From: Sedimentisphaerales bacterium
Lineage (GTDB): Bacteria > Planctomycetota > Phycisphaerae > Sedimentisphaerales > UBA12454
Assembly: GCA_016930635.1 (NCBI GenBank)
Contig: JAFGGI010000022.1
Coordinates: forward strand, 1 to 43,959
Direction: 5' to 3'
DNA length: 43,959 nt
Within the stretch, counting starts at the first letter, position 1; every line of letters begins with the position of its first letter. The notes under the pieces were generated by a model. It worked only from the letters and a program-made list of their open reading frames with translations. It was not told the DNA's origin and ran no database searches. Positions 3,599-8,018 of the stretch are shown here, piece by piece. Both the position numbers and the translations under genes were made by a program.

Positions 3599-4327
3599 AT
3601 GGAAAAGTTTCATCGTCTTGTAATGTGGATTGTTTTGCTGCTGATAATACTCTTGGTCGGCTTTTCTATTTATGGTGCATTTATCGGCGCTGAAAAAGCA
3701 AAGGAGTTTTTCAATTCACTGCCGTTAATTTCCTATTGGCTCATATTAATCTTTATGCTGATAGTCGGATTTTTGAACTTTCCAAGACTCGCAAGAACTC
3801 CTTCTCTTTTGCTGATTCATTTTGGCTGTATATTAATAATTGCCGCAGGTATGTACGGCTCAGAAGCAGGGCACAAGGCCCGGAAAAATATCTTCGGCGT
3901 TGATAAGATCTATCGGGGCCAAATGATAATACCCCAAAATCATGAGATAGATATAGTCAAGCTGGAAAATACCGACCAGATAAAACTATTGCCTTTTTTG
4001 ATAAAGCTCAAAGACTTCAGAATCGAATATTACGGACAGGGACAAACCGGCACAGGGGCTATCCGGGATTTTATAAGCAGTTTAGCTGTAATTAAAGACG
4101 GCAAAACCATTGCCCAGAAAGATGTAGAAGTAAATCATCCGCTTCATTTTGGTGGATATTATTTCTATCAGCATTCATATGACCCTAAAGCAGCCCGATA
4201 TACTGTTCTTAAAGTTGTCTCCGACAGCGGCCTAGGGGCTGTTTATATTGGGTATCTTTGCCTTGCGGCAGGAGTTTTCTGGCACTTCTGGCTGGGTCAG
4301 TTATTCAGAAAAACGGAAAATAATTAA
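3599..4327 (+). CDS. Cytochrome c biogenesis protein CcsB/ResB-like
   Basis: This is a 242-residue membrane protein with predicted transmembrane segments near residues 8-30, 42-62, 70-88 and 205-225, and a large extracytoplasmic segment between the last two. This is a shortened ResB/Ccs1 layout. Family members hold heme together with CcsA and ligate it to apocytochromes in system II maturation; many are 400-550 residues, so this one is compact. Its stop codon is directly followed by the ccsA start, and the five-heme cytochrome and hemA lie on the opposite side. I assign it by topology, segments such as HPLHFGGYYFYQHSYD and the ccsA neighbour. The role is fairly secure, residue-level function less so. 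Confidence 0.8.
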   Translation: MEKFHRLVMWIVLLLIILLVGFSIYGAFIGAEKAKEFFNSLPLISYWLILIFMLIVGFLNFPRLARTPSLLLIHFGCILIIAAGMYGSEAGHKARKNIFGVDKIYRGQMIIPQNHEIDIVKLENTDQIKLLPFLIKLKDFRIEYYGQGQTGTGAIRDFISSLAVIKDGKTIAQKDVEVNHPLHFGGYYFYQHSYDPKAARYTVLKVVSDSGLGAVYIGYLCLAAGVFWHFWLGQLFRKTENN

Positions 4328-5110
4328 ATGGAAATCTACTATACAACACAAGGCCTGCTTGTTTACGCTACGATAGCGTGTTACCTATTGGCCTTTTTGT
4401 GTGCCTTGCTCAAATGGCGAAAGGCAGGGCGGCTGTTGTATATGCTCGGATTTTTGACTGCGGTTTTTTCCTTTGCCTACCGCTGGTATCAGGTCAGACA
4501 TGTGCCTTTGCAGAACCTGTTTGAGGTATTTTTGTTTTTGGGGATGCTGATTTATCCGGTATCGGTATTCTGTAAGCGAAAGCTTAAGGTTGAAAATGAT
4601 GCCTTTGATATGTTTATCGGTATTGTTGTTCTTTTCCCGGCCGGTTTTATTTTCAGTCCCGAACCTCGCCAGCTCCCGCCTGCACTGCAGTGTTGGCTGT
4701 TTGCCCCGCACGTTGCAGTCTATATGCTTTCGTATATCTTTATGGCAAAGGCTGCCTTTGAAGGAATGTTACAATTATTTTGCACAGGCGACAGGTCACT
4801 CGAAAAAGAGTCGGCATCTTATCGTATGGTTTGTGCGGGCTTTCCATTGATGACAGCGGGGTTGTTGCTCGGCAGCTGGTGGGGTCAGCTTGCATGGAGC
4901 GATTTTTGGGGTTGGGACCCGAAGGAATTATGGTCATTAGCTTCCTGGCTGGTTTATGTCGGATATTTCCATTTCAGGGCTATGTTTGGTAGAAAACATC
5001 CGCGGATTAACAGTCTTTGGGTTATTTCAGGCCTGGCCTTGATTATTATAACCCTGTTTTGGGTGAATTTGTCCCGTATTTTCGCCGGCCTGCATAGTTA
5101 TGCCACTTAA
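4328..5110 (+). CDS. ccsA: Cytochrome c biogenesis protein CcsA (heme handling)
   Basis: This 260-residue polytopic membrane protein carries the tryptophan-rich WWD signature of heme-handling proteins (SDFWGWDPKELWSL, near residues 195-210). Conserved histidines flank it, for example in RHVPLQN, APHVAVYM and the C-terminal GLHSYAT. With CcsB it forms the system II cytochrome c synthetase, which exports heme and attaches it to CXXCH motifs. It starts directly after the ccsB stop, so the two are translationally coupled. The related protein HemX often neighbours hemA; the full WWD motif and the ccsB partner favour CcsA here. Confidence 0.9.
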   Translation: MEIYYTTQGLLVYATIACYLLAFLCALLKWRKAGRLLYMLGFLTAVFSFAYRWYQVRHVPLQNLFEVFLFLGMLIYPVSVFCKRKLKVENDAFDMFIGIVVLFPAGFIFSPEPRQLPPALQCWLFAPHVAVYMLSYIFMAKAAFEGMLQLFCTGDRSLEKESASYRMVCAGFPLMTAGLLLGSWWGQLAWSDFWGWDPKELWSLASWLVYVGYFHFRAMFGRKHPRINSLWVISGLALIIITLFWVNLSRIFAGLHSYAT

Positions 5111-5171: not shown

Positions 5172-5245
5172 GGGCGATTAGCTCAGTTGGCTAGAGCGCC
5201 TGCCTTACAAGCAGGAAGTCACAGGTTCAAGTCCTGTATCGCCCA
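5172..5245 (+). tRNA. tRNA-Val(UAC)
   Basis: Acceptor strands GGGCGAT (5172-5178) and ATCGCCC (5238-5244) pair fully and A5245 is the discriminator. The anticodon stem CCTGC/GCAGG encloses loop CTTACAA with anticodon TAC, which decodes valine. D and T arms are canonical (AGCTCAGTTGG; TTCAAGT). CCA is not encoded. Confidence 0.96.
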
Positions 5246-5515
5246 TTCCTGCAGCAGGTCAGCAAATCTTAAATATGACCCGATGGGCAACAGAATCCTC
5301 AAAAACTCCACTATAAACGGTAATCGCAGATATATTATTGACATTTCAGGCCAAGTTCTTTAAAAACTTGATAACTTTTGAGTGTGGAATTTTGGGTTAG
5401 TACGAGGCGCTTGCCTGCTGCCGCCCGGAAGCGTACTGAAGTACGTTGAGGACGTGTAGTCAGGCAAAAGCAACGAAGTAATTGCCCTGAAGAACCGCTC
5501 AAAAGGCTCTTTGGA
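5246..5515 (+). repeat. Gene-free stretch with a dispersed-repeat-like element ahead of the Rhs tip
   Basis: No credible gene is visible. From about 5385 to 5500 the sequence has a mosaic look, with GTACT..AGTAC dyads (around 5432-5445) and a GCAACGAAGTAATTGCCC segment (5469-5486). It resembles short dispersed elements seen between genes in many sediment bacteria; this resemblance is from memory and unchecked. In the Rhs reading frame, Rhs-like residues begin only near 5513, and the frame is stopped by TGA at 5447. The element therefore appears to have replaced the N-terminal part of the Rhs gene. A small hairpin (CAAGTT/AACTTG) lies near 5352-5370. Confidence 0.45.
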
Positions 5516-5566
5516 AACATTATATACTTTTATACTCCTTCCAGCCAGATACTTGCACAGGAAGGT

Positions 5567-6367
5567 GTGGCAGGCAGATACTATTACATCCACGATAGGT
5601 TAGGCTCTATAAGGGTTGTTGTCGATGAAGATGGCGATGTAATAAACAGTTACACCTATGACGCCTTCGGACGAGATTTGCCTTCCGAGTGTAATGAGAT
5701 GATTTATAATCCCTTCAAATTCACCGGCCAATGGTACGACAGCGAAACAGGCCAGTACTATTTAAGAGCCAGAATGTACGACCCGGTTTTGATGCGATTT
5801 ACTGCTTATGATCCGGTATTGGGTAAACAGGAGATACCTCTAACTTTGCATCCATACCTTTATTGTACTAATGATTCAATAAATGCAATCGATCTAAGTG
5901 GAGAGTTTGCTTGGCCTATTTTTGGTGCGTTATCTGCGGGTACTGCTGTATACTCAGCGTCGATTTATGCTATTGCAACAGGTATAGAATACGACTATGA
6001 CGAATTAATAAATATGGGTTTCCGAATGCAAAATTATATTGCACCGGCAATGTATTTTGGTGCAATAACAGGTCCACTATTACCGGTTGCGCCAGGTATT
6101 ATAACAAACTTTACTTTGGCAGTATGGGATACATTAACAACGACAGTAATTTATACTGTAGGATATGCCTATGTAGGAGGTGAGGCGTTAGTTAAGGCGG
6201 TAGCATATTGGGCAATAGCTTATCCTGAGTCTACTATATATGGTGTTATTAATGTTATAGATATGATAGCACAAATAGGGGGCCCCCCTGGATCTTTGCC
6301 AACGACACCTCTTGGTGCTTTGACGTGGCTATATGTAAATTATGACAATTATATGAGGCAGAAGTAG
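5567..6367 (+). CDS. Truncated Rhs/YD-repeat protein tip with hydrophobic C-terminal domain
   Basis: Residues 1-112 match the end of an Rhs core: YYYIHDRLGSIRVVVDEDGD, SYTYDAFGR, FKFTGQWYDSETGQYY, LRARMYDP, and a terminal NDSINAIDLSGE where polymorphic toxins switch from core to variable tip. Residues 113-266 do not resemble the core. They are Gly/Ala/Ile-rich with several hydrophobic stretches, as expected of a membrane-active effector, but I recognise no toxin family. GTG 5567 is only a nominal start: Rhs-like sequence extends up to about 5513 and the frame stays open to 5450, with no signal peptide or long repeat region. This is probably an orphan or degraded Rhs tip. Two membrane proteins follow. 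Bases from about 5850 on are more AT-rich than neighbouring genes. Confidence 0.75.
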   Translation: MAGRYYYIHDRLGSIRVVVDEDGDVINSYTYDAFGRDLPSECNEMIYNPFKFTGQWYDSETGQYYLRARMYDPVLMRFTAYDPVLGKQEIPLTLHPYLYCTNDSINAIDLSGEFAWPIFGALSAGTAVYSASIYAIATGIEYDYDELINMGFRMQNYIAPAMYFGAITGPLLPVAPGIITNFTLAVWDTLTTTVIYTVGYAYVGGEALVKAVAYWAIAYPESTIYGVINVIDMIAQIGGPPGSLPTTPLGALTWLYVNYDNYMRQK

Positions 6368-6453
6368 CAGTAAAGTATAATTATTTTAAATACTTATTTA
6401 TATTTTGTTTGTTCTGATATTTTCGAAATGCCGATAAACTTGAAGGTCTTAAA

Positions 6454-6873
6454 TTGATAACATTAATTGTTTTTTCAATCATTGGCTTGATACTGAGTGG
6501 ATTTATTCATCTTTGCTCGCTTTTTCATATTTATAGTCCATCAAGACAGTTGATGATAATAAATCAAATAGGTATTATCATTGTAATATATTCATCTCTT
6601 ATCATCTCAAAAAAAATACTTAGCGAAACTAATATAAAGAATTGCAAAAGAACCATTTTTGATGCTTGTCCCCGGTGGATATTAATTATGACAGTTTTTC
6701 TTGTTATATATGCCTTGGCAGGTCTTATCTTCTTTGCGTTCAAAAGGTATTCTTCAGGCTCAATTGTAGATACAAACGAGTTTTATGGTTTTTCAGGACA
6801 CTGGATGGCTTTTTACTCTTTAGCCTTGACATTGTTATATTCCTGTAAGTGTTTGAAAAATGATGTGCATTAG
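6454..6873 (+). CDS. Small membrane protein, candidate immunity protein A
   Basis: This is a 139-residue protein with predicted transmembrane segments near residues 3-22, 30-50, 70-95 and 112-130. It starts at TTG 6454, preceded by GAAGGT (6442-6447) at good spacing; no in-frame ATG is available because a TGA lies at 6415. It aligns with the next gene: residues 1-21 line up without gaps (both end in HLC), and both share a central Cys-Pro-aromatic-Trp motif (CPRW here, CPYW there) followed by a hydrophobic IYALAG/VYGIAT segment. I know no named family. Position behind an Rhs tip and membrane topology fit an immunity protein against a membrane-active toxin, but that is inference. The gene is AT-rich. 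Confidence 0.6.
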   Translation: MITLIVFSIIGLILSGFIHLCSLFHIYSPSRQLMIINQIGIIIVIYSSLIISKKILSETNIKNCKRTIFDACPRWILIMTVFLVIYALAGLIFFAFKRYSSGSIVDTNEFYGFSGHWMAFYSLALTLLYSCKCLKNDVH

Positions 6874-6959
6874 CGGATGATAGTTGAGCGATTGTATTAT
6901 GTGAAAATTATGCTGTTTTGTTCAAATATTACCTATTGCACAGAGTTCAGGAGATTTTG

Positions 6960-7427
6960 ATGATAGTTTTGTTATGTTTTAACTTTTTCGGGGCCTTATC
7001 TAGTTTTCTTACACATCTTTGCTTGTTGTTAGATTTTTCTCTTCCCTCAGGCAAGATAGCTATAGTTCTAAATATTGGGCTTGGTACTTTATTTTTTATT
7101 AGAATAGCTATCACTAAAGGCTTACAGCAGGAAAAAAGACAAGTTCTTAAAGATGCATTAAGGAATTTATGTCCTTACTGGTTAAAATTGATTGTAAGCC
7201 TGATTGTTGTTTATGGAATAGCCACCTGTATTTTTTCGCTAGGCATGGCTTTTTCCGAGATTTCAGTTGCGATGAAAGATTCAACTGTAGCATCGAGAAG
7301 TTTATATATTGGTGTTTTTTCTTTGATAATGGTTTGCTATACAATTGAGTTTTTAGTAGTTTATTTGTATGAAAATCTTAAGCAAACAGAACTACGGAAG
7401 CTTAAAAAGGATGGTTTTGTGTACTAA
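6960..7427 (+). CDS. Small membrane protein, candidate immunity protein B (paralogue)
   Basis: This 155-residue protein has about four predicted transmembrane segments and a basic C-terminal tail (about residues 135-152). I chose ATG 6960 over the upstream TTG 6918 because AGGAG (6949-6953) sits six bases before it, and because this start makes the N-terminus align without gaps to its neighbour (MIVLLCFNFFGALSSFLTHLC against MITLIVFSIIGLILSGFIHLC). The CPYW motif corresponds to CPRW in the neighbour. The two are diverged tandem paralogues. Duplicate immunity genes are common behind polymorphic toxin tips; function here is unproven. Confidence 0.6.
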   Translation: MIVLLCFNFFGALSSFLTHLCLLLDFSLPSGKIAIVLNIGLGTLFFIRIAITKGLQQEKRQVLKDALRNLCPYWLKLIVSLIVVYGIATCIFSLGMAFSEISVAMKDSTVASRSLYIGVFSLIMVCYTIEFLVVYLYENLKQTELRKLKKDGFVY

Positions 7428-7445
7428 TGAATAATAGGGGACGTT

Positions 7446-7556
7446 GGGGCTGTTGAAAAAGTCCGTTTTTTAGCGACTTGTTCCGTATAGCAAGACAGAC
7501 AAAAAGATACTATAACCAAGATTAATTAGGAACAGTGGGGCTGTTGAAAAAGTCCG
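7446..7556. repeat. Pair of perfect 20-bp direct repeats bounding the island
   Basis: GGGGCTGTTGAAAAAGTCCG occurs at 7446-7465 and again at 7537-7556, 91 bp apart start to start. The sequence between them is AT-rich and non-coding. The motif resembles terminal sequence of some insertion sequences or MITEs (recollection, not searched). No transposase remains in the window. The repeats lie between the membrane protein pair and the FHA gene. Confidence 0.8.
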
Positions 7557-7613
7557 CGTATAAAGTCTCCGCATTGTGTCTTTCCGGTATAAGCTGTGTC
7601 AGGCCTGTTGGGC

Positions 7614-8018
7614 TTATTGGCCGGTGAAGGTGCCGCTGCCGTTCAGGAAGTCATCATCAGCTTTTGATATGTCCGGCAGTGCCTGCATAACAGCAGTATC
7701 CGGCAGCAAGAAAGACACATCAGGCTTGCCATCGACCTGTACAGCAAAAGTCAATGGTCCTATCTGAAACTGGTCACCAGCTTTTAACTCTGCTTCACTG
7801 TCGAGCTTTTGGCCGTTAAGAAATGTGCCGTTGCTCGATTTGAGATCGCGAAGTTTGAGCGCATTTTCTTCCTGGCTTAATTGACAATGCTTGCGCGAGA
7901 CGACCTGCAAAGGGATACACAGGTCGCAACTCGTCCCTCGACCAAGAGTTGTAGCTTTACTCCGTACTGGAAAGACTTTTTTGCCGTCCTTCTTCAGCAA
8001 AACTAACGAAATATCCAT
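7614..8018 (-). CDS. FHA-domain protein
   Basis: This cytoplasmic 134-residue protein is almost wholly one forkhead-associated domain (residues 5-95), a phosphothreonine-peptide reader. Key signatures are GRGTSCDL, SRKHCQLS and SSNGTFLNG, which hold the Arg, Ser and Asn of the phosphopeptide site. A short acidic, Gly-rich tail follows. No kinase or secretion gene is adjacent, so its partner is unknown. The stop codon lies 57 bp from the nearest 20-bp direct repeat. Confidence 0.88.
   Translation of the reverse strand: MDISLVLLKKDGKKVFPVRSKATTLGRGTSCDLCIPLQVVSRKHCQLSQEENALKLRDLKSSNGTFLNGQKLDSEAELKAGDQFQIGPLTFAVQVDGKPDVSFLLPDTAVMQALPDISKADDDFLNGSGTFTGQ

Follow-up and report, generated by a model that had tools for sequence, protein, structure and literature searches.

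The window analysed here, a stretch of 43,959 nt, is contig C35 of a draft genome (2.45 Mb, 64 contigs). Two cytochrome c biogenesis genes, by our own reading ResB-like (3599–4327) and CcsA-like (4328–5110), are followed by a tRNA-Val (TAC) gene on the forward strand (5172–5245), which was detected by ARAGORN and matches Rfam RF00005 with 76 bits. To its right the forward strand carries two pieces of an Rhs core with a repeat inserted between them, a hydrophobic tip and two genes for membrane proteins, designated here MP1 and MP2. A pair of direct repeats lies behind MP2, and beyond it an FHA-domain gene (7614–8018) occupies the opposite strand. In 12 related genomes the CcsA gene served to look for an empty insertion site; the loci retrieved have no tRNA in the stretch covered.

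The initial annotation described the region as AT-rich and flanked by dispersed repeats. The composition is as stated: GC content is 33% at 6001–7500 (MP1 31%, MP2 33%) versus 43.6% for the window. The repeats are dispersed on the upstream side only, where 5377–5503 is 83% identical over 127 bp to an intergenic segment of contig C63 (139–265). Downstream there is a local direct pair, GGGGCTGTTGAAAAAGTCC (7429–7556, forward strand; two 37-nt copies, 84%), for which the genome holds only one further near-copy, with one mismatch.

The Rhs fragment and its tip

Recognisable Rhs core begins within about 10 nt of the 3′ end of tRNA-Val, and the 5′ part of the gene is absent. The first core piece (5253–5357, forward strand) was found by tblastn, the query being the core of a second Rhs gene that the genome carries on contig C31 (E-value 5.6e-7); a search of the genome itself with this C31 core gave 55% over 31 aa. 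The piece translates as ANLKYDPMGNRILKNSTINGNRRYIIDISGQ, with a stop soon after. The second piece (5519–5902, forward strand; tblastn match with the same query from 5540) runs until the RHS-associated core domain ends and lies in a different frame. Here residues 31–112 of the ORF called from 5567 match TIGR03696 with an E-value of 2.1e-21, above the cut-off of that model, so that the core end reported in the initial annotation is real. The closest core found for this piece (62%) belongs to genome G300 (locus L049).

The stretch of ∼160 bp between the two pieces (5358–5518, boundaries estimated by eye) contains the dispersed repeat and has stops in the upstream frame; a by-eye comparison with the intact G300 core indicates that ∼18 core residues are missing at this place. 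The repeat holds an imperfect hairpin (z −1.75), and two copies of this intergenic element were found in the draft genome.

An ORF start at 5567, as given in the initial annotation, has to be abandoned: GTG 5567 is a codon inside the core without a well-placed ribosome-binding site, and core sequence is present upstream of it in another frame. The idea of an orphan Rhs tip gains in precision, the locus being a 5′-truncated, frame-broken 3′ fragment. It has neither the long continuous gene with a repeat shell nor the N-terminal delivery part of an Rhs protein; what it has is a displaced Rhs 3′ end with a core remnant, which is the feature that marks orphan modules. We regard the Rhs part as almost certainly a broken orphan fragment. 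Since the delivery part is absent, the dispersed repeat replaces ∼18 core codons and the frame is shifted, the tip cannot be produced at this locus within an Rhs protein; any translation of it would need an accidental start.

The tip itself (5903–6367, forward strand; coding 5903–6364) comprises 154 amino acids and a stop. Codon use favours its frame, with all 154 codons open and the coding bias kept. The hydrophobic, non-core character noted for the tail initially is confirmed by a GRAVY of 0.50, the highest of the eight Rhs tips compared; the tip is also the least charged of them (9%). No 19-residue window exceeds 1.44, thus no clear transmembrane helices are predicted, and the fold model (pLDDT 41) is unusable. 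Searches with the tip gave no match in Pfam, NCBIfam, PHROGs or PADLOC, in agreement with the initial annotation, which recognised no named family in it; comparisons with PDB sequences, plasmids, phages and IMG/VR produced nothing usable, and two partly overlapping genome samples (298 and 392 genomes) contained no believable relative. Weak matches in genomes G704 and G723 were rejected, being located in unrelated proteins, and a match in G286, located in a hydrophobic membrane protein, was taken as chance.

Two membrane proteins and their relatives

MP1 (6454–6873, forward strand) encodes 139 amino acids from a TTG start with GAAGG upstream. MP2 (6960–7427, forward strand) encodes 155 amino acids; its start is most likely ATG 6960, which has AGGAG upstream and is the place where the relatives also start, and is to be preferred to the TTG at 6918 chosen originally. 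The gap between the MP1 stop and ATG 6960 is 86 bp. Both genes are intact, with plausible ribosome-binding sites and with relatives conserved at the protein level.

The two proteins are paralogues, as the initial annotation had it, and share the CPRW/CPYW motif that it pointed out; the similarity is not confined to the first 21 residues and extends over 93 aa (29% identity, E-value 3e-11) or, at 26%, over 134 aa (shuffle z about 14). The AlphaFold model of MP1, of moderate confidence (pLDDT 66), is all-helical, with four long helices and one short one. Foldseek against PDB yielded nothing meaningful for it (best E-value 1.6), and neither sequence nor fold led to a solved relative of MP1. Neither protein belongs to a Pfam or NCBIfam family, in line with the initial annotation, which recognised no named family in them.

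We found ten confident relatives of MP1 and MP2, in genomes G105, G186, G110, G344, G388, G365, G325, G533, G516 and G078, and all ten are located away from Rhs cores. For the first seven, stretches of 9.5–19.5 kb with uneven flanks were inspected; for the last three the loci are shorter and the absence of Rhs was read by eye. The relatives have ordinary neighbours, which change from locus to locus (SPase II, homocysteine methyltransferase, YidC-like, IS200-like transposase, HAD). G186, a MAG from the family to which the genome studied here also belongs, and by which the window is placed in the planctomycete class Phycisphaerae, has no Rhs core match anywhere in the genome, though it carries an MP1 relative, and a scan of genome contigs (A2) returned only this known G186 locus. 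Within the order the distribution is patchy (8 of 161 genomes, this one included), while G516 and G533 extend it to other classes of the phylum. A profile built without G325 (A1) finds the G325 protein with an E-value of 7.6e-11, and another (A3) finds those of G533 and G516 at 3e-25 to 4e-20.

Solitary relatives in other planctomycetes (L076:1480–2019, L085:1384–1956, L086:1441–1962 and L087:856–1962) carry the motifs xPxW and SGHWxxFY; the L076 protein, when scanned, matched no Pfam or NCBIfam model. MP1 has both motifs and the helix layout of the solitary proteins, SGHWxxFY is lost in MP2 and its relatives, and a longer loop separates helices 3 and 4 in G325, G516 and G078. No family member was matched in IMG/VR. 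Plasmids gave nothing with a family-like query sequence; a profile built independently of that sequence afterwards retrieved a protein with its motifs in G325.

A tree of nine sequences, several on long branches that leave the finer detail unsure, places MP1 with G186, G110 and G325, and MP2 with G105, G344, G365 and G388 (support of the split 87/97). MP1 is 51% identical to its nearest relative, in G186 (50% in A2), and MP2 is 60% identical to the G344 protein and 37% to that of G105. Given this split, and identities to relatives of 51 and 60% versus 26% to each other, MP1 and MP2 are an old split rather than a fresh tandem copy, so that they were either brought together or duplicated long ago. 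The claim of two diverged paralogues thus stands, in the form of two old subfamilies with separate relatives; a recent local duplication does not. MP2 is nearer to a protein from a different family of the order than to one from its own, which suggests lateral movement of this gene. Differences of MP1 and MP2 from their relatives are mainly at third codon positions, as under purifying selection.

Other Rhs loci and known orphan modules

Among 14 readable Rhs ends in the taxonomic family and in G286, 12 have a small same-strand ORF directly behind the tip (mechanical ORF calls), and several of the products of such genes are polytopic by hydropathy, or appear so by eye. The tips of the compared Rhs genes differ from one another behind a shared core, and the tip here is likewise private. 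Two loci come close in design: in G286 (C65; L090:1–3027) two hydrophobic proteins of 170 aa, 63% identical to each other, stand in tandem behind an Rhs end with a private tip, and in G300 a hydrophobic tip is accompanied by two membrane proteins. The membrane proteins at the other Rhs loci, G300 included, are unrelated in sequence to MP1 and MP2, and the gap of 86 bp between tip and MP1 is longer than at most compared loci.

Some further features of these loci were observed. In G286 the tandem pair is followed by the start of another Rhs fragment. In the genome studied here the same 135-bp flank (99% identical), which holds a small ORF beginning MKPTKKQLIIFTMVGVV, is found behind two unrelated pairs of Rhs tip and small gene (L026:1849–2000 on C31 and L027:1618–1762 on C41); a third copy (82%; L043:1491–1658 on C25) lies behind a 167-aa protein without an adjoining Rhs core. 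Such a shared 3′ flank could help in cassette swapping. The Rhs tips of C41 (L027:676–1227), for which Pfam gave no match, and of G105 (L048:1351–2562) have by eye a His/Asp-rich stretch in common (HxGQDYFSH, HAWQDSYVH). We take this candidate likeness, likewise by eye, to recall zinc-dependent phospholipase C-like proteins.

Orphan CDI/Rhs toxin/immunity modules are displaced 3′ gene ends, many with core remnants, and are thought to be kept either for the immunity they confer or in reserve (PMC4927057). The locus resembles the orphan rhs-CT/rhsI and cdiA-CT/cdiI modules (PMC4927057, PMC3150448) in having a displaced 3′ end with a core piece, with small genes behind it on the same strand and repeats close by. 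It differs in that no parent Rhs gene adjoins it, the core remnant is interrupted out of frame, and the membrane-protein family does not recur beside tips in the genomes searched. Homogeneous polyimmunity loci consist of tandem paralogous immunity genes (PMC3482391); MP1 and MP2 likewise stand in tandem on one strand, as diverged paralogues that a short gap separates, but there are only two genes here and no member of their family is a known immunity protein. By analogy, the most fitting description is that of a locus which works, or once worked, in the manner of an orphan Rhs module, short of being a proven one. The arrangement is of a known kind; neither the tip nor the membrane-protein family has a name.

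Possible orphan immunity and its alternatives

In the explanation we favour, the Rhs 3′ end that lies displaced directly behind tRNA-Val carries a tip that would have been a membrane-active antibacterial toxin domain, a mode of action suggested by composition; and MP1 and MP2 would be kept as orphan immunity proteins, seated in the inner membrane and blocking this tip or related ones that neighbouring cells deliver. We give this reading as a whole, a displaced and silenced orphan-type Rhs 3′ cassette with two maintained membrane proteins as orphan immunity, about an even chance. The truncated and frame-broken core, the private tip, the small genes at 12 of 14 Rhs ends and the designs in G286 and G300 all argue for it, as do the third-position differences, the tip's place among eight as the one with the highest hydrophobicity and the lowest charge, and the likeness to published orphan modules. 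Against it stand the ten relatives away from Rhs, G186 without a core match, the 86-bp gap, the tail without a toxin relative and the unrelated membrane proteins of other Rhs loci. The initial annotation, which proposed duplicated immunity proteins, named relatives found mostly away from Rhs tips as evidence to the contrary: the position behind the tip agrees with the proposal, but ten of ten relatives are away from Rhs cores. Ten solitary cases make a small sample, and orphan immunity genes would be solitary too.

The same solitary relatives give weight to another explanation, a real possibility that we lean against only slightly: MP1 and MP2 would be small membrane proteins of a stand-alone family (xPxW, SGHWxxFY) with a membrane role of its own; they would have no functional tie to the dead Rhs fragment and would only share with it a variable, AT-rich, tRNA-linked spot. 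Ordinary and changing neighbours, the persistence of an MP1 relative in G186 and the reach of the family into other classes are all in line with this. Against it, members of two subfamilies follow an Rhs tip directly and on its strand, at the usual small-gene site in related genomes; a patchy family is, moreover, unlike a housekeeping gene, and the solitary state would equally be expected of orphan immunity genes.

Between these lies an unlikely scenario in which a stand-alone membrane-protein family that lacks a database model was recruited, in the form of two old, adjoining subfamilies, for immunity to a new membrane-active Rhs tip, the solitary members being orphan immunity genes against tips of this type. 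That the tail is a structural or degenerate Rhs end, its open frame the residue of a dead gene, is improbable: no toxin relative was found and a tail in a broken gene may have drifted, but the compared tips differ from one another, a hallmark of polymorphic toxins, a common structural end should recur in samples of 298 and 392 genomes, and the frame is open with its coding bias kept.

Should the immunity reading be false, the locus is a useful caution that closeness to an Rhs tip, taken by itself, is poor evidence for a family whose other members occur elsewhere. Should it be true, it would provide a function for a family of small membrane proteins that neither Pfam nor NCBIfam models, and would bring in, from Planctomycetota, an Rhs tip that acts on membranes.
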